DNA of 36,188 nt from a virus. A model generated the notes under the pieces. It did not search any database and was not told the DNA's origin. It saw nothing but the letters and a program-made list of their open reading frames with translations. Each line of letters begins with the position of its first letter. Position 1 is the first letter of the stretch. Location: positions 1 to 36,188 of the IMG/VR virus record IMGVR_UViG_3300032334_001196, one strand, 5' to 3'. Below are positions 4,558-27,130 of the stretch, in pieces. The position numbers were made by a program, and so were the translations under genes.

Positions 4558-5448
4558 ATGAATTTTAAATCATTTTTTGCTAGTGCCGTTGTTGTTTCTG
4601 CAATGACCGCTCCTGCTATGGCACAAGTCACCAGTGTTTCTCAACTGAGTGATGTGCAACCTACTGACTGGTCTTATCAGGCAGTTTCAAATCTGGTATC
4701 GCGTTATGGATGTGTTGCTGGTTTCCCTAATGGAACTTTTCAACCAGGACAACCTGCCACTCGTGCCCAACTTGCTGCACTGACTAGTGCTTGCCTGGAT
4801 CGCATTAGTGAGTATCAGACTGCTGCTGATGCTGCTCTTGCTGCCGCGCTTCGTGCTCAATTCTCCAAAGAAATTGCTGCCACTAATACTCGTGTAACGA
4901 CTCTGGAAGTTGCTTCTGCTCGTAAGGCACAAGGAGTTGGTCAGTATGTAGGTGTTGGCGTTCTGCTGAATAAGCAAGGAGTTGCTGGCGGTGGTAATGG
5001 TACTAATCAAACCATCTCCGGTGCTACTGTTCAGGCACGTCTTCCTGTTGCTACTGCTTGGGGAAATGAAGTTTCAATTCGCCCTTATGGCAACTTTGTT
5101 GGTAACCCTGCTGGACAGATTGGTGCTGCTGGTGGTGCTCTTGCTACTTATGATTATTCCGTTTCACGCAAGAATCTTGCAAATGGAACTAAAGTAAGTC
5201 GTGCAAACATCTATGGTGGTATTGGTGTTCAAACTCCTTTTGTGAATAATACCACTTCCAATTATCAATCTGCTGTTGGTTCTCAGACTCAAGTTGTTCT
5301 TGCTTTGGGTGTTGAAGGTCGTATTACTGATTCCTTGGTTGGTTTTGCAGATCTTAAGTTCCCCACTACCAATGCTGGTAACAGTTATGGTAGTTCAAAC
5401 GGAACTTATAGTCCCGTGTTCACAACTGGTCTTGGTATCAAGTTCTGA
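4558..5448 (+). CDS. Miniature SLH-domain outer-membrane (porin-like) protein
   Basis: 296 residues. A clear signal peptide ends in PAMA|Q near residue 22. Residues of about 28-83 form an SLH domain (WSYQAVSNLV, CVAGFPNGTFQPGQPATRAQLA) like that anchoring cyanobacterial porins to the cell wall. A short Ala-rich helical linker follows (about 85-120). Residues of about 125-296 look like a beta-barrel of alternating strands and end in Phe, the usual outer-membrane assembly signal. Host porins of this architecture are much longer (OprB-type barrels), so this is a small version with roughly eight strands. It is relatively GC-rich compared with the glycan block. It could alter the host outer membrane, act as a decoy receptor, or be a virion component. 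Confidence 0.75.
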   Translation: MNFKSFFASAVVVSAMTAPAMAQVTSVSQLSDVQPTDWSYQAVSNLVSRYGCVAGFPNGTFQPGQPATRAQLAALTSACLDRISEYQTAADAALAAALRAQFSKEIAATNTRVTTLEVASARKAQGVGQYVGVGVLLNKQGVAGGGNGTNQTISGATVQARLPVATAWGNEVSIRPYGNFVGNPAGQIGAAGGALATYDYSVSRKNLANGTKVSRANIYGGIGVQTPFVNNTTSNYQSAVGSQTQVVLALGVEGRITDSLVGFADLKFPTTNAGNSYGSSNGTYSPVFTTGLGIKF

Positions 5449-7059: not shown

Positions 7060-7109
7060 GTTTCCAATTTCCAGTTAAAGAATTGCTGGCAAATTTGAAA
7101 GACCTAATA

Positions 7110-7136
7110 GGAGAGTTGCATAAACTCTCCTTTTTT
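7110..7136 (+). terminator. Rho-independent terminator before the glycan block
   Basis: GGAGAGTT-GCATA-AACTCTCC, an eight-pair perfect stem, followed by six T. It isolates the glycan block from upstream genes. The -35 box of the next promoter overlaps its loop. Confidence 0.9.
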
Positions 7137-7164: not shown

Positions 7165-7668
7165 ATGAAAGTTGGTTTTAATTGTAGTTGCTTTGATCTT
7201 TTTCATGCCGGGCATGTTACAATGCTCAAAATGGAAAAGGAGATGTGTGATTATTTGAAAGTAGCTCTTCAGGTTGATCCATCCATCGATAGACCTGGAT
7301 TTAAAAATAAACCAGTACAATCTATTTACGAAAGATACGTGCAAGTTCAAGGATGCAAGTATGTAGATGAAATTCTTCTTTATGATACTGAGTCAGATCT
7401 TCTCAATCTCATTATGACACAAACTTTTCACATTAGATTTTTAAGTGAAGAATATAAAGATATTGACTTTACTGGAAAACAATATTGCATTGATAATGGT
7501 GTAAAAATTTATTATCATCAAAGAAAACATCAATATTCAAGTACAGAACTTAGGAGCAGAGTCTATGGACTTGAAAAATTAAGAAAACAAGAAAATGACT
7601 TTAAAAATATCATTCAATATTCACCAGAACTTTTGGAAAAATATTCAGTTAAAAATGAAGATCAATGA
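7165..7668 (+). CDS. Cytidylyltransferase-like (TagD-type) nucleotidyltransferase
   Basis: 167 residues. The N-terminal CFDLFHAGHVTML carries the HxGH nucleotide-binding motif, and YSSTELRSRV near residue 130 matches the C-terminal ISSTxxR motif of the cytidylyltransferase superfamily (glycerol-3-phosphate or ethanolamine-phosphate cytidylyltransferases). Such enzymes activate a phosphorylated polyol, alcohol or sugar with CTP. First gene of the glycan block, with its own promoter and separated from gmd by an 81-base promoter gap. Its substrate cannot be read from the sequence; a CDP-activated glycerol or similar substituent for a surface polymer is plausible. Confidence 0.8.
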   Translation: MKVGFNCSCFDLFHAGHVTMLKMEKEMCDYLKVALQVDPSIDRPGFKNKPVQSIYERYVQVQGCKYVDEILLYDTESDLLNLIMTQTFHIRFLSEEYKDIDFTGKQYCIDNGVKIYYHQRKHQYSSTELRSRVYGLEKLRKQENDFKNIIQYSPELLEKYSVKNEDQ

Positions 7669-7749: not shown

Positions 7750-8769
7750 ATGAACGATTGTAAAAAAATAGCACTTATTACTGGAATAACTGGACAAGAT
7801 GGTTCTTATCTTGCTGAACTTCTCTTAGAAAAGGGATACGAAGTTCATGGAACAATTAGAAGAAGTTCTACTATTAATAACGATAGAATCAAATACTTCT
7901 CTGATGACGTTGTGCTCCATCATGCAGATTTAACGGATTCTACTAATATTATTCATGTAATCAAGGATGTCCAACCAACAGAAATATATAATCTTGCAGC
8001 TCAGAGTCATGTAAAAGTTTCATTTCAAATGCCAGCTTATACGGCAGAAGTTGATGCTTTAGGTACGGTTCGTATTCTTCATAGTCTTTGTATTTTGGGA
8101 ATGGAGAAAGATGTTAGGTTCTACCAAGCTTCAACTTCAGAAATGTTTGGTATGGTCCAAGAAATACCCCAAAAAGAAACAACACAGTTTTATCCAAGAT
8201 CTCCCTATGGAGTAGCAAAACTGTATGGCCACTGGATTACAAAAAATTATAGGGAGTCAATGGGGATTCATGCCAGTTCTGGTATTCTTTTTAATCATGA
8301 ATCCCCACGTAGAGGTGAAACTTTTGTGACAAGGAAAGTTGTTATTGGACTTTCTAAAGTAAAAGCTAGATTATTGGATTGTATTTATTTGGGCAATCTA
8401 AATGCAAAACGTGATTGGGGACATGCAAAAGATTTTGTTGAAGCAATGTGGTTAATGCTTCAGCAAGATGAACCTGATGATTATGTTATCGCTACTGAAG
8501 AGCAACATTCTGTTCGTGAATTTGTGGAAAAATGCGCTCCTTATTTTGGAATGAATATTCGTTGGGAGGGAGAAGATCTTGATGAAGTCGGTATTGATAC
8601 CGTAAGTGATCGTGTAGTGATCCGAGTTTCTGAAAAATATTTCAGACCATCTGAGGTTGATACTTTGGTTGGAGATTCAACTAAAGCTAGAGAAAAACTT
8701 GGGTGGGAACCAAAAATTAGTTTTGATGAACTTGTCAGGGATATGTGCTTGAATGAACAGCGGTTTTGA
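7750..8769 (+). CDS. gmd: GDP-mannose 4,6-dehydratase
   Basis: 339 residues, the normal length for the family. The NADP-binding [16 protein letters not shown] is at residues 9-24. STSEMFG holds the catalytic Thr/Ser and Glu, [12 protein letters not shown] is the YxxxK catalytic motif, and [15 protein letters not shown] is diagnostic. It converts GDP-D-mannose to GDP-4-keto-6-deoxy-D-mannose, the branch point for fucose, rhamnose, perosamine and colitose. The next gene encodes an enzyme acting on exactly this product. No GDP-fucose synthase (fcl) is recognised in the window. gmd is known from several cyanophages. Confidence 0.95.
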
Positions 8770-8787: not shown

Positions 8788-9951
8788 ATGTATTGGCCTT
8801 TAATGAAGGATACGATCACCTTTACTGATCGTTTAAAAATGGCAAAATTTGTTCTCTTTACAAGTCGTCTTACTAATGGACCAAAAGTAAAAGAGTTTGA
8901 AAATCAGTGGTCTAACTGGTTAGGTTGCAAATATTCTTTGTATGTGTCTTCTGGTAGCACAGCAAATTCTCTTTTAATATCTTCTGTAAAGGATCTTTAT
9001 GGGTTAAAGGATGGGGATAAAGTTATTGTTCCTGCCTGTACTTGGGTTACAAATATTGCTCCAGTTATTCAATCTGGTCTTACTCCTATTTTTTGTGACG
9101 TAAACTTTAATAATTTTAGTTTTGATGAAGATAACCTTGAATATATTGCAAGAGAACATCCAGACGTAAAAGTGATCTTTATTACACATCTTTTGGGAAT
9201 CTCTGCTAATGTTGAAAGGTATAAGGAGTTATTTCCAAATGCTTTAATACTAGAAGATATTTGCGAATCTCATGGAGTAGAAAATAATCAAGGTATTCGT
9301 AGAGGAAAAAATTCTTTAGGATCAACCTTTAGTTTTTATTTTGGTCATCATATGACCACTATTGAAGGGGGAATGGTTTGTACTAACAATAAAGATTTGT
9401 ATGAACTTATGAGAATGAAGCGCAGTCACGGAATGGCTAGGGAAGCTAGTCCAGATCGATTTAAACAATATACTGAAGATAACCCAGATATTTCAAAACA
9501 GTTTCTTTTTATGACTGATGGGTATAACTTTAGAAATCACGAAATTTGTGCAGTCTTAGGTTTATCTCAGTTAGAAAGATTGGATAAAATGATAGAAATT
9601 CGCAGAAGAAATTATAAAGATTTCTTTCTTTCTATATCAAAAAAATCTGATAAGTTTTATATTCCAGAATATCACTCAGGAAATAGTAGTTTTTGTTTCC
9701 CAATTATTTGTAAAGACCCAAAAAATGTAAATAAACTTAAAGAAATTTTTGACTCTAAAGGAATAGAGCATCGTCCTATTGTTAGTGGTAATCTTTTGAG
9801 GCATCCTGCCTTTAAAAAGTATAATGTTTTTACTGAAAAAGAAAACCTAAATGTGGAAATCCTACATACAAGTGGCGTTTATGTTGGAAATAATCATTTC
9901 GTTACGCCCGACCAAATGAAAGTATTATCAAATATACTTGACAATATTTGA
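8788..9951 (+). CDS. ColD-like PLP-dependent GDP-4-keto-6-deoxymannose 3-dehydratase
   Basis: 387 residues of the DegT/DnrJ/EryC1 fold: VSSGSTANSLL binds the PLP phosphate and LEDICESHG holds the Asp that contacts the ring. The usual catalytic Lys is replaced: residues 183-193 read FYFGHHMTTIE, with His at 187 and 188 before EGG. ColD has a His in this place and uses it as a base to remove the C3 hydroxyl instead of transaminating. The C-terminal end (RPIVSGN ... GVYVGNN) also follows ColD. With gmd just upstream, a route to a GDP-3,6-dideoxyhexose such as colitose is likely. Ribosome site TAGGAGAG precedes the start. A plain aminotransferase is unlikely without the Lys. Confidence 0.85.
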   Translation: MYWPLMKDTITFTDRLKMAKFVLFTSRLTNGPKVKEFENQWSNWLGCKYSLYVSSGSTANSLLISSVKDLYGLKDGDKVIVPACTWVTNIAPVIQSGLTPIFCDVNFNNFSFDEDNLEYIAREHPDVKVIFITHLLGISANVERYKELFPNALILEDICESHGVENNQGIRRGKNSLGSTFSFYFGHHMTTIEGGMVCTNNKDLYELMRMKRSHGMAREASPDRFKQYTEDNPDISKQFLFMTDGYNFRNHEICAVLGLSQLERLDKMIEIRRRNYKDFFLSISKKSDKFYIPEYHSGNSSFCFPIICKDPKNVNKLKEIFDSKGIEHRPIVSGNLLRHPAFKKYNVFTEKENLNVEILHTSGVYVGNNHFVTPDQMKVLSNILDNI

Positions 9952-9990: not shown

Positions 9991-11058
9991 ATGAGCGAAA
10001 GACAAAAAACAGCACTTGTTTGTGGTGCTGGTGGATTTATTGGAAGTTACATGGTAAGGAGACTTCGAGAGGAAGGATACTGGGTTCGTGGAGTAGATCT
10101 TAAGTATCCTGAATTTTCTTCGTCTGCAGCAAATGAGTTTATTCAAGGAGACTTGACCGATCAAATTTTTGTTGAAAAAGTCGTTCAATTTAAGGGATAT
10201 GCTGGCAACTATTATCATTTTGTAGCATCCAAATATATCGAAACCTTTGATGAGATTTATCAGTTTGCTGCCGATATGGGTGGTGCTGGATATATTTTTA
10301 CAGGAGATCATGATGCAGATGTAATGCATAACTCTGCATTAATTAATCTGAATATTCTGGATTCTGTGAGAAAACTGAATGACTTTACTATCAAAAATAA
10401 GACTAAGATCTTTTATTCATCTTCTGCTTGCATGTATCCAGAATATGCTCAAATGGATGTAGATAATCCTGGTCTAAAGGAATCTGATGCATATCCTGCT
10501 GGACCTGATTCTGAGTATGGATGGGAGAAATTGTTCTCTGAGCGTCTGTATCTTTCTTACAACCGCAATTATGGTATCCCTGTAAGGATTGCTCGATATC
10601 ACAATATCTTTGGTCCTGAAGGTACTTGGACTGGTGGAAAGGAGAAGTCTCCTGCTGCTATGTGCCGTAAGGTTGCTGAACTTCCTCCTGGTGGAGGTAC
10701 AATTGATATTTGGGGGGATGGAGAGCAAACACGTTCATTCTTGTTTATTGATGAATGTATTGAAGCAACTCGTCGTTTAATGGATTCTGATTTTGAAGGT
10801 CCAGTAAATATTGGTTCTGAGGAGATGGTGACTATTAATACTCTTGCCGACACTGCGGCTAAAGTCTCTGGAAAGGAAATTGCTAAAAAGCATATTGATG
10901 GACCTCTTGGTGTTCGTGGACGTAACTCCAACAATGATCTTATTCGTGAAAAACTTGGTTGGGATTACTCCATGACTTTGGAAGATGGTATTTGCAAAAC
11001 ATACGAATGGATTAATGCTCAAGTTTATAAAGATAAAATAATGTATCATCCAATTTGA
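9991..11058 (+). CDS. GDP-mannose 3,5-epimerase-like SDR
   Basis: 355 residues. NAD-binding GAGGFIGSYM is near residue 11, AADMGGAGYI is typical of GDP-mannose 3,5-epimerases, SSACMYPE has the catalytic Cys147, YGWEK has Tyr176/Lys180, and KEKSPAAMCRK has the second catalytic Lys. RYHNIFGPEGTW and GVRGRNSNND complete the match. The family turns GDP-mannose into GDP-L-galactose or GDP-L-gulose. An extra segment of about 20 residues (about 65-88) between the second and third strands is absent from plant enzymes. Context with ColD leaves open that it epimerises and/or reduces the dideoxy intermediate (the ColC step). Confidence 0.85.
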   Translation: MSERQKTALVCGAGGFIGSYMVRRLREEGYWVRGVDLKYPEFSSSAANEFIQGDLTDQIFVEKVVQFKGYAGNYYHFVASKYIETFDEIYQFAADMGGAGYIFTGDHDADVMHNSALINLNILDSVRKLNDFTIKNKTKIFYSSSACMYPEYAQMDVDNPGLKESDAYPAGPDSEYGWEKLFSERLYLSYNRNYGIPVRIARYHNIFGPEGTWTGGKEKSPAAMCRKVAELPPGGGTIDIWGDGEQTRSFLFIDECIEATRRLMDSDFEGPVNIGSEEMVTINTLADTAAKVSGKEIAKKHIDGPLGVRGRNSNNDLIREKLGWDYSMTLEDGICKTYEWINAQVYKDKIMYHPI

Positions 11059-15600: not shown

Positions 15601-16307
15601 CTGACGTTTTAAAATTTGCTGATATTTCTGGAAATATCATAGATCTCTCTTCATCTGAAAATTATAGGCAACATGCATTTGCCGAACACTCTTGTACAAT
15701 TGCAATAGTGAACCAATTTAACAATGATTTTTATTACTTTCTTCGTGATCAAGAAGAACTTAATATTATTGATTTGGGTGCAAATGTTGGTCTTTTTTCT
15801 CTGTATGTTTCTCCCATTGCTGAGAAAATCTTTGCAGTTGAACCAACTCCATCCCATTTTGAATTACTTAATGAGTTGGTTGGTTTAACTCAAAATCAAA
15901 ATATAGAAACACATCAAGTTGCAATTGGATTGGAAAATGGAGAATCCAATTTTCATATTCATGAGAGAAACTCTACTATGAATTCTTTTGTTCAACACAA
16001 AACAGATCCTCATAGTGGAAAAATTGTAAAAGTAAAAACTTTAACTTTAAATAGTTTTATTGATTCACTAAAACTTGACTCAAAAGTTGGTTTTGTTAAA
16101 ATGGATATTGAAGGATTTGAAAATCAAGTTGTTTTTGAACCTTCATTTGAGGATGCAGTTTCAAAAGTAGATGCAATCTATGTTGAAGTGCATGATTATG
16201 AAGATTGTGGTAAAATGGATTATAACTTCAATAAAATTAAAGATCAGTTTAAGTCTTGGGGAAGGACTGTAGAAAAACTTCAATTTGATAGTATGTTAGT
16301 TTATTAA
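15597..16307 (+). CDS. FkbM-family methyltransferase (second)
   Basis: 236 residues. IIDLGANVGLFSLYVSP near residue 57 is a canonical SAM motif, IFAVEPTPSHFELL the acidic second motif, and VGFVKMDIEGFE near residue 168 the FkbM motif. It is closer to consensus than the one at 12898, so the two are probably not a recent duplication. Its N-terminus (FADISGNIIDLSSSENYRQH) is typical of stand-alone FkbM proteins. Likely O-methylates a glycan residue. The start overlaps the previous stop as ATGA. Confidence 0.88.
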   Translation: MTDVLKFADISGNIIDLSSSENYRQHAFAEHSCTIAIVNQFNNDFYYFLRDQEELNIIDLGANVGLFSLYVSPIAEKIFAVEPTPSHFELLNELVGLTQNQNIETHQVAIGLENGESNFHIHERNSTMNSFVQHKTDPHSGKIVKVKTLTLNSFIDSLKLDSKVGFVKMDIEGFENQVVFEPSFEDAVSKVDAIYVEVHDYEDCGKMDYNFNKIKDQFKSWGRTVEKLQFDSMLVY

Positions 16308-16924
16308 TGAAAAAACTTTATCGTAGATTACTTGATATTTGTTATAAAAACAAACTCCACCATCTTGGGAGTTATTTTTCTTGTTTAGAAATATTGAATA
16401 ACATTTATAGTGAAATGAAAGAAGACGATATCTTTATTCTTTCCAATGGACATGCGGTCGTTTCTTTATATGTGATATTAGAAAAGTATTATGGATTAAA
16501 CGCACAAGAATTATTGGATAAGTATGGCGAACATCCAAAAAGAAACGAGTTGGATAAAATTTATTGTTCAACCGGAAGTCTTGGTATGGGAATTACTGTT
16601 TCCGTGGGAAGAGCATTATCTAATCCCAATCGCAATGTGTATTGCATGATTTCTGATGGGGAATGTGCAGAGGGATCTGTTTGGGAAGCACTTAGGTTTT
16701 CTTATGAAAATAATCTAGATAACTTAAAAATTTATGTAAATGCAAACGGGTGGTCTGCATATGATTCGATTGATTTGGATTACTTAGAAAAAAGAATTAA
16801 ATCATTTAATCCAAAAGTAAATTTTATTAGAACAACGGTAGAATCCTTTGGTCTTTCTGGATTAGATGCCCATTATACTAATTTTACTGAACAACAATAT
16901 CTGGAGGCTGTTAAATCGTTATGA
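16307..16924 (+). CDS. Transketolase N-terminal (TPP pyrophosphate) subunit
   Basis: 205 residues. HHLGSYFSCLEILNNIY, FILSNGHAVVSLY and GSLGMGITVSVGRAL match the first third of transketolase. MISDGECAEGSVWEAL...VNANG is the thiamine-diphosphate/Mg motif near residue 114-145. It lacks the other two domains, which a separate gene partly supplies. Split transketolases occur in archaea and in secondary-metabolite or polysaccharide loci, where they transfer a two-carbon unit to build branched or higher-carbon sugars. The stop overlaps the next start as ATGA, suggesting a two-subunit complex. Confidence 0.85.
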   Translation: MKKLYRRLLDICYKNKLHHLGSYFSCLEILNNIYSEMKEDDIFILSNGHAVVSLYVILEKYYGLNAQELLDKYGEHPKRNELDKIYCSTGSLGMGITVSVGRALSNPNRNVYCMISDGECAEGSVWEALRFSYENNLDNLKIYVNANGWSAYDSIDLDYLEKRIKSFNPKVNFIRTTVESFGLSGLDAHYTNFTEQQYLEAVKSL

Positions 16925-17391
16925 GAAGAAAGTTTCAGGAACTTCTTACTGAAGAAATGCGAACAAATGATAATATCTTTCTTTTAGTTGGAGATGTTGG
17001 ATATAAAGTATTTGATCATCTTCGTGAAGAGTTCCCTCAAAGAGTTATTAATCCAGGAGCAGCTGAACAACTTATGATAGGTATGGGAGTTGGTTTTGCT
17101 CTTGAGGGTAAAATTCCAGTTTGCTATTCTATTACGCCATTCGTTCTTTATCGTCCATTTGAGTTTATTCGCAACTACTTGCATTATGAGCAGATACCAG
17201 TTAAACTTGTAGGTAGTGGACGTAATGATGATTATGGTGCCTGTGGTTTTAGTCATTATGCATATGAGGATTTGGAAGTTTTGAAAGCACTGCCAAATAT
17301 TGAAGTTTATCATCCACAGTCTGCCGATGAAGTTGACATTAAAAAGTTTCTCTATTCTGATAAACCATCTTATATTAATCTTAAACGATGA
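16921..17391 (+). CDS. Transketolase pyrimidine-binding subunit
   Basis: 156 residues. RRKFQELLTEEMRTNDNIFL, the loop VINPGAAEQLMIGMGVGFAL with the Glu that activates thiamine diphosphate, and GACGFSHYAYEDLEVLKAL are the second transketolase domain. The third domain, normally about 120-150 residues, is missing, so the pair is a minimal enzyme. With the previous gene it should form one active site at the subunit interface. The block also holds SDRs and an aminotransferase, so a modified ketose for the glycan is more plausible than central metabolism. Confidence 0.85.
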   Translation: MRRKFQELLTEEMRTNDNIFLLVGDVGYKVFDHLREEFPQRVINPGAAEQLMIGMGVGFALEGKIPVCYSITPFVLYRPFEFIRNYLHYEQIPVKLVGSGRNDDYGACGFSHYAYEDLEVLKALPNIEVYHPQSADEVDIKKFLYSDKPSYINLKR

Positions 17392-18209
17392 AAATTTTAT
17401 TTACTGGACATAAAGGAACTCTTGGTAAAGAACTTATACCATACCTTAAGCAAAAACATGATGTTTATTATTATGATATTAACTATTCCAGTGTTGAAAA
17501 TGTAAATCAATTTTTTCGCAATCGACAAATAGATTTTATCATACATTCTGCTATTCGTGGTGGGCGTCGTGTTCGTGAAGATGTCGCAGAAGATTTATAT
17601 AATAATGTAATGATGTTTGAGTGCTTAGCGTCTCAAGCAATTCCTATGATTAATTTTTGTAGTGGAGCTTCTTACGGGAGGAAGCTAGATATTGCTAATG
17701 TTGATGAGAGAGATTTTGGTAAAATTATTCCAGATGATTATTATGGTCTATCCAAATATCTGATCACACATCGTTGCCGTCAAATGATTAACGTTTATAA
17801 CCTAAGATTTTTTAATGTCTTTGGTTCAGAATCTCCAAAGGATATGTTTACTTCAGTTAATATAATGAACTATATTAACAAAAAAGAAATTATTATTTTT
17901 AAAGATAAACTGATGGATTTCTTTGGAATTGATGATACTAAAAAAGTAGTTGACCTTTATCTTTCTAAGGATAAAAAATTGCCTAAAGAGGTTAATCTGG
18001 TGTATAATAAAGGTTATTATCTTTCCGAAATTGCGGAGATGATTAATAATCTATCCGATTATAGAGTACCTATTAATATATTGGAATCTGGATACGATAA
18101 ATCATATTCTGCTTCGGGATATGAACTTTCTAGATTAAACATAGAGTTAAATGGTATTAATACCTCAATTAAAAAATGTTATCAGTATTATTTAAATCAT
18201 GCAAAATAA
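17388..18209 (+). CDS. NAD-dependent epimerase/dehydratase (extended SDR)
   Basis: 273 residues. FTGHKGTLGKEL near residue 4 is the NAD loop, IHSAIRGGRRV the fourth-strand region, NFCSGASYGRK the catalytic Ser region and YYGLSKYLI the YxxxK motif. RFFNVFG is typical of sugar-nucleotide epimerases and reductases. It follows the split transketolase by overlap, so it may reduce or epimerise the same intermediate. The specific reaction is not evident. It overlaps the next gene by 11 bases. Confidence 0.8.
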   Translation: MKILFTGHKGTLGKELIPYLKQKHDVYYYDINYSSVENVNQFFRNRQIDFIIHSAIRGGRRVREDVAEDLYNNVMMFECLASQAIPMINFCSGASYGRKLDIANVDERDFGKIIPDDYYGLSKYLITHRCRQMINVYNLRFFNVFGSESPKDMFTSVNIMNYINKKEIIIFKDKLMDFFGIDDTKKVVDLYLSKDKKLPKEVNLVYNKGYYLSEIAEMINNLSDYRVPINILESGYDKSYSASGYELSRLNIELNGINTSIKKCYQYYLNHAK

Positions 18210-18947: not shown

Positions 18948-19787
18948 ATGATTGAAAGAGTAAAGTTTAATTTAGTTGATAGTACATTTTCTCATTTGGA
19001 CGGTGGTAGATTACCAATTCCAAACAAAGGATATTCGGTACACGGAAAAGAATCCAAATATATTAAATGGGTTACTGATGGTAGTGGAGTGGCAAAGTTT
19101 TATACAGATCGTAGAATTTTGGAAGCATTTAATGATGACTCTGACGAAATTAAATATGCTTGGTTTTTGGAATCAAAACCAATCGTTCCAGATCTTTTTC
19201 AATTTCTGAGAAATAATCTTGATGCTTTCTTAGAAAAGTTTGAATATATCTTTGTTTTTGAAAAAGAACTTTTAAAACTAAGTCCCAAGTTTAAATGGGT
19301 TCCTGCTCAGGGATTTTGGATTCGTGAACCAAAAATTTATGAAAAGTCTAAAATAATTTCTATGATTACTTCAAACAAAGTTATGTGCGAAGGGCATAAA
19401 AAAAGATTAGAGTATGTTGAAAAGTTTAAAGATCAGGTCGATCATTTTGGAAATGGATTTAAGTGGATCGACTGGAAGGAAGAAGGACTCTGTGATTATA
19501 TGTTTTCGATAGCAATGGAAAACTGCGAAGTTCCTGGATACTTCACTGAAAAAATCCTAGATTGCTTTGCAACCGGAACAATACCTGTTTATCTAGGAGA
19601 TCCTACTATTGGAGAATATTTTAATATGGATGGAATCATAACAATATCAGATGAATTTTATATTTCTGATGAGTTGTATTATAGTAAAATGGATGCAATC
19701 AAAGATAATCTAGAGAGAGCAAAAAAAATGGAAGTTCTTGAAGATTATATCTGGGAAAATTATTTGAAGGAAAAGTTTGGCAAATGA
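18948..19787 (+). CDS. GT10-like (alpha-1,3-fucosyltransferase-like) glycosyltransferase
   Basis: 279 residues, preceded by the best ribosome site of the block (AAAAGGAG). From about residue 185, FSIAMENCEVPGYFTEKILD continues as CFATGTIPVYLGDPTIGEYF. This is the GT10 donor motif (ENxxxxxYxTEK...G.IPVY.G), which binds GDP-fucose or a related GDP-sugar. The N-terminal half is poorly conserved. GDP-sugar enzymes (Gmd, ColD-like, epimerase) are in the same block, so a GDP-6-deoxy or dideoxy sugar is a consistent donor. Confidence 0.75.
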   Translation: MIERVKFNLVDSTFSHLDGGRLPIPNKGYSVHGKESKYIKWVTDGSGVAKFYTDRRILEAFNDDSDEIKYAWFLESKPIVPDLFQFLRNNLDAFLEKFEYIFVFEKELLKLSPKFKWVPAQGFWIREPKIYEKSKIISMITSNKVMCEGHKKRLEYVEKFKDQVDHFGNGFKWIDWKEEGLCDYMFSIAMENCEVPGYFTEKILDCFATGTIPVYLGDPTIGEYFNMDGIITISDEFYISDELYYSKMDAIKDNLERAKKMEVLEDYIWENYLKEKFGK

Positions 19788-21425: not shown

Positions 21426-22648
21426 ACGTTAGCTTTATCGGTCTTGGAAAACTTGGACTGCCTCTCGCATGTTGCTTAGCAAAAAGTGGAAATAAAATTT
21501 TAGGAGTGGATAAGAATGAATATATTCTTGAAAAATTAAATCGTAAAGAACTTCCTTTTTATGAACCAGGGTTAACTGATATTTTTCCTCACGAAAATTT
21601 TATTGGATTTACTGATTCTTATTCTAGAGCAGTAGAGGAAACAGACGCTTCAATTATTCTAGTTAATACTCAACTTGGTGATAGTGGATATTCTGCAGAG
21701 TTTGTTGAATCTGCTCTAACAGATCTTTCTGTAAATTTAAAGAAAACTAATAAAGACTACCATTTGATTGTTCTTTCATCTACAGTTCTTCCTGGAACTA
21801 TTCTTAAACTTATTCGTTTAGTTGAAAAAATATCAGGGAAAAAATATGGTAAAGAATTTGGATTTTCCTATGTACCAGATTTTGTAAAACTTGGTAATGT
21901 CATTAAGGACTTTTTGAATCCTGAATTTTTTCTTATCGGTGCAAATAATACTGAGGATATTATCAGGACTCAATCTATTTGGAGTGGGTTCCATCAAAAT
22001 AATGCTCCTAAGAAAATTCTTTCTTTAGAAGAAGCAGAAATTGCTAAGGTTGCTCTTAATGCTTTTATTGTAAACAAAATTACCTTTGCAAATTTTCTAG
22101 GTCAACTTTGTGATGGTATGAATAATGTTAATGTCCATAATATTACAGAAACAATAGGACTTGATAAAAGAATTTCTCCATACTTTTTTGGATATGGGAC
22201 ACCATATGGTGGAACTTGTTTTCCAAGAGATACTTCTGCCTTTATTAAATTTGCTGAGAATAGGGGAAGAAATGCAAAACATCTTAAGTTTGCTGATGAA
22301 GTGAATGAAAGTTTGCATGAAGATCTTTTGAGAAAATGTGAGGGGTATAAAAACGTTGGAATTCTTGGGGTATCATTCAAACCATCATCACCTGTCACAA
22401 TAGGATCTCCTTCAGTTAGATTGATTGAACAACTTGCAAAACGTGGAGTGAAGGTTTTCATTTATGATGAGATTGATCAGACGTATGATAATCTCAATGG
22501 ACTTTTAGATTCGGTTATAAAATGTTCTTCAGCACAGCAATGTGTAGATAAGTCTGATGTAGTTGTTATTATGCATCCCAATAAGGCATTTGCTTCTCTT
22601 GATACAACTAACAAAGTGTTCGTTGATTTTTGGGGAGTTGTTTCGTAA
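21422..22648 (+). CDS. UDP-glucose/GDP-mannose dehydrogenase-family protein
   Basis: 408 residues. SFIGLGKLGLPLACCLAKSG is the NAD loop. SSTVLPGT and ALNAFIVNKITFANFLG give the central domain with the Lys/Asn pair. YGTPYGGTCFPRDTSAF has the catalytic Cys at residue 266. GVSFKPSSPVTIGSPS is the C-terminal NAD-side motif. The family oxidises C6 of a nucleotide sugar to a uronic acid in two steps. The usual KPNTDDxR motif is altered here (KPSSPVTIGSPS), so the substrate may differ. Part of the coupled chain (ATGA with the previous gene). Confidence 0.85.
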   Translation: MNVSFIGLGKLGLPLACCLAKSGNKILGVDKNEYILEKLNRKELPFYEPGLTDIFPHENFIGFTDSYSRAVEETDASIILVNTQLGDSGYSAEFVESALTDLSVNLKKTNKDYHLIVLSSTVLPGTILKLIRLVEKISGKKYGKEFGFSYVPDFVKLGNVIKDFLNPEFFLIGANNTEDIIRTQSIWSGFHQNNAPKKILSLEEAEIAKVALNAFIVNKITFANFLGQLCDGMNNVNVHNITETIGLDKRISPYFFGYGTPYGGTCFPRDTSAFIKFAENRGRNAKHLKFADEVNESLHEDLLRKCEGYKNVGILGVSFKPSSPVTIGSPSVRLIEQLAKRGVKVFIYDEIDQTYDNLNGLLDSVIKCSSAQQCVDKSDVVVIMHPNKAFASLDTTNKVFVDFWGVVS

Positions 22649-23682
22649 TGATTAAAGTTAAAGAATCTATTAAACAACTTGAAGAATATAATGTTGGTGG
22701 AAGAAGAAATCTTTCTTCCGACTGGGAATGTTTTGATTGGAATGAATCTGAGTTTCCTCCATCAAATAAAGTTTTTGATGTTGTCAAAAGATTCTATCGT
22801 TATGAAAGATATCCAGATGTTGCAACTTCAAAATTAAAGGAAAATCTTTCTAGATATACTTCTGTCTCAGAAGATTTTATTGAAGTTTATAATGGATCTG
22901 ATGATGCTTTAAGGGACATTTTTACAGTCTTTGTCGATAAAGATACTCAGGTATTGTCTTACCAACCTTCTTATACTCAGGTCGATACTTTCATTACTAC
23001 AAATACTGATAACTATGATCGGGTTCAAATTGAAGACCCTTTAGGGAAACACCGATATGATTTTGACCATTGCAAATATGCTGATGTTGTTTATCTTGTA
23101 AATCCAAATAATCCTACTGGTAAGTTGTTAAATCCTAAAGAGATTGAAAAATTGATTACATCTTTACCAGATGTTTTATTTGTTGTGGATGAAGCTTATT
23201 ATGAGTTTGCTAAACAATCTTGTTGTCATTTAGTTGCAACAAATAAAAATTTAATCGTAACTAGAACCTTTTCAAAAGCATTTGGTCTTGCATCTCTTCG
23301 CTTAGGATACATCATTGCTCACCCAGATCTACTTGTACATCTTAGAAAGTTTAGAAATGGTAAGTCTGTAAATGCTCTTGCACAACTTTGTGGTGTCGCT
23401 TGTTTAAATGATTTAGATTATTTGGAGTTTTGCATTTCTGAAATGAATGATGCTAAAAAGTTTTTCATGGATAATCTACCAAATCAGTATGAGGCGGTGG
23501 AAAGTTTTGCAAATTTTGTTCTTGTCAAGACACCCGATTCTAAAACTGTGTTAAATAAAATGAAAGAGAACAAAATTCTTATTAGAGACAGGAGCTCTTT
23601 TCAAAATTTAGATAACTGTGTTAGAATAACAATTGGATCTAAAAAACAAATTATTAAAATTTTGGATGTATTGAATAAATGA
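22648..23682 (+). CDS. HisC-like PLP aminotransferase
   Basis: 344 residues from the ATG overlapping the previous stop; longer versions start inside the upstream gene and are rejected. NGSDDALRDIF, NPNNPTGKLL, VVDEAYYEFA and TRTFSKAFGLASLRLGY with the PLP Lys at 210, plus a C-terminal CVRITIG arginine motif, match histidinol-phosphate aminotransferases. Here it more likely aminates a sugar or amino-acid-like precursor of the glycan than works in histidine synthesis. The true substrate is unknown. Confidence 0.8.
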   Translation: MIKVKESIKQLEEYNVGGRRNLSSDWECFDWNESEFPPSNKVFDVVKRFYRYERYPDVATSKLKENLSRYTSVSEDFIEVYNGSDDALRDIFTVFVDKDTQVLSYQPSYTQVDTFITTNTDNYDRVQIEDPLGKHRYDFDHCKYADVVYLVNPNNPTGKLLNPKEIEKLITSLPDVLFVVDEAYYEFAKQSCCHLVATNKNLIVTRTFSKAFGLASLRLGYIIAHPDLLVHLRKFRNGKSVNALAQLCGVACLNDLDYLEFCISEMNDAKKFFMDNLPNQYEAVESFANFVLVKTPDSKTVLNKMKENKILIRDRSSFQNLDNCVRITIGSKKQIIKILDVLNK

Positions 23683-24608
23683 TTGGATACAACAGACTAG
23701 GTATTAATGGACGACTAGCAAATCAAATGTTCCAGTATGCTTCATTGAGAGGCATTGCAGCAAAACATGGATATGATTGGTGTATTCCACCAAGAGATAG
23801 GCAAACCTATCAAATGGCAGAATACATTTTAATGGATGGATTTAAACTTCCCCACGTGAAAGAGAATAATATTGGATTTGTCCCAGAAAATTTTCCAACA
23901 CGTGATGAACCATGCCATGATTTTGATGAAGAACTTTTTGAAAATTGTCCAGACAATATAAACCTTGAAGGATTTAGACAATCTGAAAAGTACTTCAAAC
24001 ATATTGAAAAAGAAATTCGAGAAGACTTTGAATTCGTTGATGATATCTATGAACCATGCAAAGAGTTCATATCACAATTCGATGATAATATTATTTTTCT
24101 CCATGTAAGAAGGGCAGACGCTACTGGAAGACCTCATCAATACCCTGTCGCTGGAATTGAGTGGTATGAAAAAATGTTGAAGGAAAATTTTTCGGATGAT
24201 GTTCCCGTTCTTGTTTTAACCGATAAGTTAGACTGGGTTCAGGAACAAAAACTATTCAAACAAGATAGATTCTTTATATCAGAGCAGAGAGAATATTCAA
24301 CTCAAGCGGTTTGGAACGGTAGAGGAAAGATGGAATATAGTCTATCTCCTTGGATTGATCTGTGCCTTATGAGTTTGTGTAATGGATCTATTTTCCCAAA
24401 TAGTACCTATGGTTGGTGGGGATCTTGGTTGCAGAAAAATAAAAAGTATTCAACCGTTTATCAACATCCTTATTTTGGTCCTTTCTTTACGGATCAACAT
24501 GATTGTTATAGAGACCTGAAAGATTTGTATCCTGACGGATGGATTAGAGGGCATCTTCCAGAGGAGTTTATTGATAAGGAATATACTGCCTCTGAAAATG
24601 AACTATGA
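23679..24608 (+). CDS. GT11 glycosyltransferase (alpha-1,2-fucosyltransferase-like)
   Basis: 309 residues. GRLANQMFQYASLRGIA at the start, FLHVRRAD near residue 142 and FPNSTYGWWGSWL near residue 245 are the three GT11 motifs; HVRRAD is the GDP-fucose-binding site. It is a paralogue of the gene at 26252, sharing FDEELF, EKYFKH and EREIRED-like stretches. It has a charged C-terminal tail not present in the paralogue. Donor is probably GDP-L-fucose or a related GDP-deoxysugar. Confidence 0.9.
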   Translation: MIGYNRLGINGRLANQMFQYASLRGIAAKHGYDWCIPPRDRQTYQMAEYILMDGFKLPHVKENNIGFVPENFPTRDEPCHDFDEELFENCPDNINLEGFRQSEKYFKHIEKEIREDFEFVDDIYEPCKEFISQFDDNIIFLHVRRADATGRPHQYPVAGIEWYEKMLKENFSDDVPVLVLTDKLDWVQEQKLFKQDRFFISEQREYSTQAVWNGRGKMEYSLSPWIDLCLMSLCNGSIFPNSTYGWWGSWLQKNKKYSTVYQHPYFGPFFTDQHDCYRDLKDLYPDGWIRGHLPEEFIDKEYTASENEL

Positions 24609-25414: not shown

Positions 25415-26265
25415 AAAAAATATTAGTTCTTGGATCTAGCGGTCAGATCGGAGATTATCTGACAGAATACCTTCGTAAGAAAGGTCATGAAGTTTCAGAG
25501 TTTGATATTGTGAATGGTGAGGAAGAAGACCTTACTAAAATTCCTAATATTAAACTGATGCATGATATTAGTCTTGCAGACTTTGTATTCTTCTTAGCAT
25601 TTGATGTTGGTGGATCTCGATACCTGAAGAAGTATCAACACACCTATGACTTCATCAATAATAACATTCGACTGATGGCAAATGTTTTTCAGTATCTTGC
25701 TGAATACCGTAAACCATTTGTCTTTGCTTCATCTCAAATGAGTAATATGGGACATTCTCCCTATGGTGTCTTGAAGAAAGTAGGAGAACTATATACTCAA
25801 ACTCTTGGGGGTCTAACCGTCAAGTTCTGGAATGTCTATGGCGTAGAGAAAGACGTAGAAAAATCACACGTTATCACCGACCTTATTCGTAGAGGATTTG
25901 AAGAGGGTGAATTTGAAATGCTTACGGATGGAACTGAAGAAAGGCAGTTTCTTTATGCGGAAGATTGTTGTGAAGGTTTAGAAACTGTTATGAATTGCTA
26001 CGATAATTTCAAACCAACAGATTCATTGCATATTACATCATTTAGAACTGATTCTATTAAGAGTGTTGCTGAAATAATTAAGGGCCAATTTAATTTAATT
26101 GGTAAATATGATGTAAAAATCAAACCAGGTATTGCTAAAGATAGTGTCCAAATGGATAAACGAAATGAAGCAGATACCTATATTACCGGATGGTGGATGC
26201 CCAAAACTCCACTTGATCAAGGTATCGCAAAAGTATTTGAGGAAATGAAGAATGATTGGATTTAA
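25411..26265 (+). CDS. NAD-dependent epimerase/dehydratase (SDR)
   Basis: 284 residues. VLGSSGQIGDYLTEYLRKKG is the NAD loop near residue 5. FASSQMSNMG has the catalytic Ser and HSPYGVLKKVGE the YxxxK motif. FWNVYGVEKD matches epimerases, and RQFLYAEDCCEGL is the conserved C-terminal strand. Base composition here and in the next gene is less AT-rich than in the middle of the block. Sugar-nucleotide substrate unknown. Overlaps the next gene by 14 bases. Confidence 0.8.
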   Translation: MKKILVLGSSGQIGDYLTEYLRKKGHEVSEFDIVNGEEEDLTKIPNIKLMHDISLADFVFFLAFDVGGSRYLKKYQHTYDFINNNIRLMANVFQYLAEYRKPFVFASSQMSNMGHSPYGVLKKVGELYTQTLGGLTVKFWNVYGVEKDVEKSHVITDLIRRGFEEGEFEMLTDGTEERQFLYAEDCCEGLETVMNCYDNFKPTDSLHITSFRTDSIKSVAEIIKGQFNLIGKYDVKIKPGIAKDSVQMDKRNEADTYITGWWMPKTPLDQGIAKVFEEMKNDWI

Positions 26266-27130
26266 TCACATTGGAACTATGGGTCGGTTGGGAAATCAGA
26301 TGTTCCAACATGCTTCAACAAAAGGTATTGCTAGAAAATTAGGATTAGAATATTGTATTCCTCCGGCAGATAGACTTGATTTTCAGATTGATAACTATGG
26401 ATTGTTCGAAGCATTTGAAATGTCAAATGTCGATCACGTTCAATTTTTGAATAATGGAAATGCTCCAGTTGTTCAGGAACGACATTTCCATTTTGATGAG
26501 GAATTATTTACTCTTTGTCCAGACCATGTTACTCTGAATGGATTTTTTCAAACCGAAAAATACTTTAAACACGTTGAACGTGAGATTAGAGAAGATTATA
26601 CCTTTAGACCAGAATGGATTGGACCTTGTACAGAGTTTATGAGTCAGTTTGAGGATCAAGAAGTAATCTTTCTTCATGTTCGTAGGGGTGATCCTAATCT
26701 TGCGGATAAACGTGGATTTAAATGGGCATATGTAAATATTCAGGATCAACATCCTGTTCAACCTCTTGATTATTACGAAAATGCTCTCAAGCAGTTCCCA
26801 GAAGACTATCCAGTTCTTGTATTTTCGGATTCGATTGATTGGTGTAAGGAGCAAGAGATCTTTAAACCAGATCGTTTTATGTTCTCCGAACCAGAAGATA
26901 AATACGACGATGGTGCATTGGTTCCTTATGTTGATCTATGTATTATGTCTTTGTGTTCTCATGCAATTATAGCAAATAGTTCCCTTTCTTGGTGGGGAGC
27001 TTGGTTGCAGAAGAATCCAAATAAGAAAGTAATTGCACCTAAGATGTGGTTCGGTCCCGTATACAGTCAACACAACACAAAAGATTTGATCCCAGAGTCA
27101 TGGACAATAATTAACGATGGACAAGAATAA
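26252..27130 (+). CDS. GT11 glycosyltransferase, second copy
   Basis: 292 residues. It carries the same three motifs as the gene at 23679: GRLGNQMFQHASTKGIA, FLHVRRGD near residue 142 and ANSSLSWWGAWLQ near residue 235. Both paralogues also share CIPP.DR, FDEELF and PVLV...DWV/C..Q. Protein divergence is clear, so the duplication is not recent. It overlaps its neighbours by 14 bases at both ends. Two GT11 enzymes may add deoxyhexoses at two positions of the polymer. Confidence 0.9.
   Translation: MIGFNHIGTMGRLGNQMFQHASTKGIARKLGLEYCIPPADRLDFQIDNYGLFEAFEMSNVDHVQFLNNGNAPVVQERHFHFDEELFTLCPDHVTLNGFFQTEKYFKHVEREIREDYTFRPEWIGPCTEFMSQFEDQEVIFLHVRRGDPNLADKRGFKWAYVNIQDQHPVQPLDYYENALKQFPEDYPVLVFSDSIDWCKEQEIFKPDRFMFSEPEDKYDDGALVPYVDLCIMSLCSHAIIANSSLSWWGAWLQKNPNKKVIAPKMWFGPVYSQHNTKDLIPESWTIINDGQE

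Follow-up and report, generated by a model that had tools for sequence, protein, structure and literature searches.

A predicted ColD-like sugar 3-dehydratase from a distinct, largely viral clade in the glycan gene cluster of a cyanophage

Organization of the glycan gene cluster

The window (the whole stretch of DNA analyzed here) is the 36,188-base linear IMG/VR virus record IMGVR_UViG_3300032334_001196. Judged from the psbA gene at its end and from the kinship of its genes with those of Synechococcus and Prochlorococcus phages, the source virus is a T4-like cyanophage. A single, co-directional glycan cluster extends from about 7.1 to 27.9 kb and has a G+C content of 0.29-0.36, compared with 0.35-0.41 for most of its flanks. 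The principal features are listed in Table 1; it should be noted that terminator-like sites such as the hairpin given there are no commoner in the window than chance would provide (1 vs a mean of 2.1 in shuffles). The cluster also encodes a GT25 protein, two FkbM methyltransferases, a UDP-glucose dehydrogenase-type protein, two more SDRs, a class I/II aminotransferase and the halves of a split transketolase. The GT10 protein is a possible user of a GDP-L-fucose-like sugar, and the GT10 and GT11 genes together fit a fucose-like sugar donor, with host LPS, capsule or the virion as candidate acceptors.

Table 1. Coordinates of the features discussed in the text
Feature	Coordinates	Strand	Basis
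Terminator-like hairpin, immediately before the glycan cluster	7109..7131	+	hairpin scan
Cytidylyltransferase-like protein, start of the glycan cluster	7165..7668	+	Pfam CTP_transf_like
gmd, GDP-mannose 4,6-dehydratase	7750..8769	+	TIGR01472; 7kf3
Putative His-type DegT-fold sugar 3-dehydratase (ColD-like), 387 aa	8788..9951	+	Pfam, PDB, AF2 model
G186-H187-H188 codons; H187 occupies the PLP lysine position (ColD H188)	9343..9351	+	
GDP-mannose 3,5-epimerase-type SDR (GME; GDP-L-galactose/L-gulose branch)	9991..11058	+	2c59
Small RmlD/epimerase-type SDR, candidate 4-ketoreductase (inferred only)	17388..18209	+	Pfam Epimerase, RmlD_sub_bind
GT10 (fucosyltransferase-type) glycosyltransferase	18948..19787	+	Pfam PF00852
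GT11 (alpha-1,2-fucosyltransferase-type) glycosyltransferase	23679..24608	+	Pfam PF01531
Second GT11 glycosyltransferase	26252..27130	+	Pfam PF01531
psbA	35217 to 3' end of window		

The gmd product scores 521.6 bits against TIGR01472 (cut-off 415) and 451 bits against 7kf3. An earlier note on this DNA had held that this gene makes the substrate of ColD, and the match to TIGR01472 bears it out as a genuine gmd. The gene ends 18 bp upstream of the ORF at 8788-9951 that is the subject of this report; its product is presumed to be GDP-4-keto-6-deoxy-D-mannose, and to serve as the substrate of the enzyme encoded by that ORF. A GME-type gene begins 39 bases after the ORF. Its product has a score of 295.7 bits to 2c59, with the next families below 80, and retains the GME catalytic residues S145, C147, Y176, K180, K219 and R311.

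Several other genes deserve mention. The class I/II aminotransferase gene (22630-23682, HisC-like) adjoins the UDP-glucose dehydrogenase-type gene. The N- and C-terminal halves of the transketolase are encoded by two neighboring genes (16307-17391); they were considered as members of the colD pathway and rejected, since just 3 of 33 colD phage records contain the C-terminal half. A seemingly similar transketolase pair occurs near gmd and a ColD-like gene in a Pelagibacteraceae locus (L142). At 4558-5448 the window encodes an SLH-domain protein with a resemblance, below the por_somb cut-off, to the N-terminal part of iron-uptake porins of cyanobacteria.

A DegT-fold protein with histidine in place of the catalytic lysine

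The ORF at 8788-9951 is intact, encodes 387 aa, and is preceded by an AGGAG ribosome-binding site. It matches Pfam PF01041 (DegT_DnrJ_EryC1) with E 2.3e-55 and 188.7 bits, well above the gathering cut-off of 19.8. Comparison with six relatives of 76-92% identity gave dN/dS values of 0.04-0.10, with the changes concentrated at third codon positions, as expected for purifying selection. The ORF, its His-His motif, the selection acting on it and its gmd neighbor are not due to chance.

The best four PDB sequence matches were all ColD, at 192-197 bits (best 196.6). These were followed by E1 at 121-125 bits (best 124.6), by 9wvy, a putative NDP-4-keto-6-deoxyglucose 3-dehydratase, at 120 bits, and by the GDP-perosamine synthase PerA at 94 bits. 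An AlphaFold (AF2) model of the protein (pLDDT 94.2, pTM 0.92) was superposed on known structures with VIA-align, as the earlier note had advised, and ColD was again the closest: 3b8x aligned over 375 residues at 2.1 A with Z 49.3, whereas E1 reached 45.9 and no aminotransferase exceeded 43.6. A search of BFVD for full-length near relatives returned only a 145-aa fragment of 40% identity.

To match ColD positions, the H188 mutants were used to set a chain offset of two residues. With this alignment H187 of the phage protein coincides with ColD H188, the residue altered in 3b8x (H188N) and in 2r0t and 3gr9 (H188K). The same column is lysine in all five Lys-type DegT proteins compared; thus, the active-site lysine of aminotransferases of the PerA, PseC and ArnB type is absent from the ORF and its column holds His. 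The His187-His188 pair had been reported in the earlier note, with correct numbering; together with the preceding G186 it is unchanged in 83 of 83 viral homologs. ColD residues H188, H215, D159, N248, E329 and R331 correspond to H187, H214, D157, N247, E327 and R329 of the phage enzyme, and all six positions, H188 as the substitute for lysine and the others as presumed active-site residues of ColD, are conserved throughout the viral clade. ColD S187 is replaced by Gly186. Of the four cysteines that hold the Fe-S cluster of E1, the phage enzyme retains C159 and lacks the other three, and the E1/RfbH profile NF011936 gives 187.8 bits, below its cut-off of 423. With ColD-type residues, no lysine and a position among the His-type enzymes, the predicted activity is that of a ColD-like 3-dehydratase and not of an aminotransferase, as had been proposed, whereas the accompanying suggestion of an E1-type enzyme fails on the missing cysteines.

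Phylogeny of the His-type enzymes

Trees were constructed for two sets of 84 and 58 proteins. His-type enzymes were split from Lys-type ones at 100/100 and formed three distinct clades: E1, core ColD (100/100), and a third (100/100) in which the phage enzyme is found. This third clade has a bacterial branch with the motif A-H-H and a virus-dominated branch with G-H-H, which adjoins true gmd genes and includes a few MAG sequences. Bacterial members of the phage clade that are linked to gmd also carry Gly before the His pair. MAG-derived relatives within the viral clade, which are possibly phage contigs, were kept out of the cellular count. One of them, the Crocinitomicaceae MAG contig PACT01000001.1 (L106), has an fcl nearly equal to the S-SKS1 phage gene along with a ColD-like protein of the viral clade, and probably represents phage DNA that was binned with a bacterial genome.

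In AU tests, union of the viral branch with ColD was rejected (p 0.0003), union with E1 was strongly rejected (p about 0), and union with the Lys-type enzymes was disfavored (p 0.022). Three identities were discarded on these grounds: a ColD orthologue, given the separate clade in the trees; an Fe-S enzyme of the E1 type, given also the three missing cysteines; and a Lys-type aminotransferase, given also the His in the lysine column. The phylogenetic comparison advised in the earlier note separates the protein from the Lys-type aminotransferases, but does not place it in the ColD clade. Since its residues and fold are ColD-like but its clade is separate, the phage enzyme would work like ColD without being a ColD orthologue. 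Sequence and modeled fold give good support to its assignment as a ColD-like 3-dehydratase whose clade is distinct and composed mostly of viral proteins; as far as we found, this clade is an uncharacterized branch of the 3-dehydratases.

The bacterial sister branch is large, and its A-H-H-M-S-T motif occurs in Prochlorococcus single-cell genomes (L161, L163) and in other cyanobacteria (L172, L146, L180). In several genomes its members have HddA-, HddC-, GmhB- and DmhA-like neighbors, all of which score below curated cut-offs; it is possibly a family of 3-dehydratases for heptose or other 4-keto sugars. In Nodosilinea (L172) a fused PDH E1-like gene adjoins the sister-clade gene. Phage 3-dehydratases of the E1/RfbH type, with CxC cysteines, were also observed, in Synechococcus phage S-H68 (L003:7827-9122) and at L072:6171-7451. 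The former lies near a dTDP-glucose 4,6-dehydratase gene and rhamnose-type genes, and at L072 the E1-type gene is accompanied by a ColD-like one.

Distribution in phages and potential hosts

One scan located relatives of the ORF on 194 IMG/VR stretches, and among annotated phages close relatives are encoded by S-CAM7 and many ACG-2014f genomes. The gene, which the earlier note considered unusual for a virus, is therefore common in cyanophages. Database names of the relatives are CDP-4-keto-6-deoxy-D-glucose-3-dehydrase, aminotransferase or hypothetical protein. The best 80 of the 194 stretches, 92 to 54% identical to the ORF, were analyzed for their neighborhoods. Of these 80 loci, 69 had a gmd gene of at least 45% identity within the fetched flanks, as did 54 of the 57 with adequate flanks. 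An Fcl-type gene stands beside gmd and colD in 34 of the best 80, and 15 have the arrangement of the window, gmd-colD-GME without Fcl; the remainder have neither or are cut. All are loci on metagenomic contig fragments, so a gene missing from a record may still exist in the virus.

The gmd-fcl cassettes of the sequenced cyanophages P-SSM2, S-SRM01, S-SCSM1 and S-SKS1 have no ColD-like gene in them, and these four phages are apparently outside the annotated-phage matches, to judge by tallies by organism; the published account of S-SCSM1 includes gmd, fcl and GME (PMC9602691). The existence of gmd-fcl cassettes without colD makes colD look like an optional addition to the known fucose cassette.

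Among 201 genomes of one picocyanobacterial family, reached via a Prochlorococcus single-cell genome, Fcl was found in 119 and any ColD-like gene (E 1e-40) in 12; the nearest ColD-like protein of the family is 39% identical to that of the phage. A few picocyanobacterial genomes (L224, L229, L232, L233) have adjoining ColD-like and ColC-type genes, apparent colitose pathways in potential hosts. We found no report of a cyanophage or phage-encoded colitose enzyme of this kind in the literature covered, which was largely open-access.

Proposed reaction

E1 and SpnQ bind an Fe-S cluster through four cysteines and require a reductase, whereas ColD has no Fe-S cluster, ends its reaction by hydrolysis and has its PMP restored by glutamate (PMC8987622). 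Homologs of ColD from C. jejuni likewise use glutamate and form a 3-deoxy product (PMC10440746). With the ColD active-site residues kept and the E1 Fe-S cysteines not, a ColD-type 3-dehydratase acting on the Gmd product is the best reading. Very probably, then, the ORF product is a GDP-4-keto-6-deoxy-D-mannose 3-dehydratase that depends on PMP and operates as ColD does, with glutamate and without an Fe-S cluster, although its identity to ColD is about 31% and its clade lies apart from all characterized ColD proteins.

Given the fold, residues, clade, gene order and gmd linkage that were observed directly, a route can be proposed in which substrate, chemistry, final sugar and acceptor are predictions. 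Glutamate would load the cofactor as PMP, which would form a ketimine with the C4 ketone of the substrate. H187, the substitute for lysine, would take the C4' proton of the cofactor, the C3 hydroxyl would leave the ketimine, and hydrolysis without an Fe-S partner would give GDP-4-keto-3,6-dideoxy-D-mannose. A reductase would turn this into a 3,6-dideoxyhexose, which the glycosyltransferases of the cluster might attach to a host-surface or phage-directed glycan. The last step would be simplest via the Fcl of the host, to give GDP-L-colitose, or via the phage SDR at 17388-18209, to give another sugar.

Two other views of the enzyme were weighed. The heptose-type genes beside the sister clade in several bacteria indicate that another GDP-4-keto-6-deoxy sugar is possible as substrate, and C. 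jejuni does possess a heptose C3-dehydratase (PMC10440746). Action on a 4-keto-6-deoxyheptose nucleotide is nevertheless improbable: members of the phage clade are found beside true gmd and not beside DmhA-like genes, they have Gly and not Ala before the His pair, and the C. jejuni enzyme, at 62-67% identity to ColD, falls in the clade of ColD instead of that of the phages. More improbable still is the view of the ORF product as a remnant without the Lys, or as an aminotransferase forming GDP-perosamine by means of another base. GDP-perosamine synthase shares the DegT fold and is the next GDP-sugar relative, but the purifying selection, the invariant His pair, the His-type clade with its ColD-type residues and the AU result for the Lys-type union all speak against it.

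The finishing step and the end sugar

Colitose synthesis requires a C5-epimerase/C4-reductase. ColC-type proteins encoded beside true ColD genes, including the rare picocyanobacterial pairs, form a clade of their own (support 97), and none was found in any phage cassette examined. The Fcl-type proteins of the phage colD cassettes group instead with GDP-fucose synthases from three sources: E. coli, picocyanobacteria and phages that have no colD. When the records of 14 gmd-colD-GME loci, including a contig of 153.5 kb (L024), were searched with Fcl, only GME and more distant SDRs were recovered and none at the level of Fcl. An Fcl hidden elsewhere in these phages was consequently set aside, as far as the 14 records, which are fragments, extend. 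The dedicated route to colitose that the earlier note envisaged is thus not borne out, as the window has neither a ColC-type gene nor Fcl and the gene next to colD is of the GME type.

Colitose is still our leading guess for the end sugar. A phage or host Fcl would epimerize C5 and reduce C4 of the 3-deoxy ketone, diverting the fucose pathway to 3-deoxyfucose, and we rate GDP-L-colitose as the product at a little short of an even chance. In its favor are the 34 loci with an Fcl-type gene beside gmd and colD, the gene order gmd-fcl-colD-glycosyltransferase in S-CAM7 and ACG-2014f, the frequency of Fcl relative to ColD-like genes in the picocyanobacterial family, and the GT10 and two GT11 fucosyltransferase-type genes of the window. 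Two points weigh against it: the phage Fcl proteins fall outside the ColC clade of true ColD, and the host of this virus, known only by the cyanobacterial psbA, may be without Fcl. In the gmd-colD-GME phages the SDR at 17388-18209 could instead be the 4-ketoreductase, with another 3,6-dideoxyhexose, not inverted at C5, as its product. It has the SDR fold and a YxxxK motif, and 9 of 11 gmd-colD-GME records contain it, as against 0 of 22 other colD records. However, the nine records are closely related, so that the association may reflect common descent; the gene is missing from two gmd-colD-GME records, the 153.5-kb contig among them; and it has no informative PDB relative (22 bits). We regard this alternative as rather unlikely. 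Least probable for this step is that the GME-type enzyme stands in for ColC and both epimerizes and reduces the 3-deoxy ketone. It does follow directly after colD in the window and in 15 relatives without Fcl, but every catalytic residue matches ordinary GME, and three alignment columns alone distinguish these enzymes from those of Fcl-bearing phages; S-H68, with no gmd in the stretch read, has the same states in those three columns. GME is also present without a ColD-like gene of the phage clade in S-SCSM1 and S-H68, and the GME reaction, in which NAD stays tightly bound, has no net redox change (PMC6678494). With nearly all its columns ordinary, re-purposing of GME is not indicated and was rejected.

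The broader picture that we would draw, tentatively and with somewhat less assurance than colitose itself, is of aquatic phages that have inserted into their gmd-fcl fucose cassettes a GDP-4-keto-6-deoxymannose 3-dehydratase from a family in which viral members predominate and which is separate from both ColD and E1. The surface glycan of the infected cyanobacterium might in this way gain a 3,6-dideoxyhexose that most hosts cannot make, with a reductase of the host, or a new one of the phage, completing the synthesis. Sugars of this kind are strong surface determinants of bacteria. The predicted enzyme hints at a virus that rebuilds the surface sugars of its host with a rare dideoxy sugar, and a widespread phage enzyme that probably makes the precursor of such sugars offers a chemical handle on the long glycan clusters of large cyanophages. 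The reading predicts a testable sugar in infected cells, and it corrects the database names of these genes, now given as CDP-sugar dehydrase, aminotransferase or hypothetical protein.

Comparison with known systems

The nearest known system is ColD (WbdK; 2gms, 2r0t, 3b8x, 3gr9), with which the phage enzyme shares the fold over 375 residues, His in place of Lys, the active-site positions, the lack of the Fe-S cysteine set, and a gmd gene in the cluster. It differs in its low identity, its separate clade and the change from Ser187 to Gly186, and in being phage-borne without a ColC partner. E1/RfbH, the CDP-4-keto-6-deoxyglucose 3-dehydratase (3bcx), is also a His-type DegT dehydratase, but it has four Fe-S cysteines and needs a reductase; the phage enzyme retains a single one of these cysteines, and CDP-glucose genes were not observed. 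The C3-dehydratase of C. jejuni HS:5/HS:11 carries out the PLP/glutamate-dependent C3 deoxygenation of a GDP-4-keto-6-deoxy sugar that is predicted for the phage enzyme; it differs in its heptose substrate and in its much closer identity to ColD, given above (PMC10440746). Among phages, C490910_227 of S-CAM7 (AOV62151.1) and gp225 of ACG-2014f are 55-57% identical to the ORF, lie near gmd and belong to the same clade, but in both an Fcl-type gene stands between gmd and colD, and the proteins are annotated as CDP-sugar dehydrase or aminotransferase. The gmd-fcl(-GME) cassettes of S-SCSM1 and P-SSM2 likewise place phage genes of the GDP-fucose and GDP-L-galactose type in a glycan cluster (PMC9602691), and differ from the window in having no ColD-like gene.
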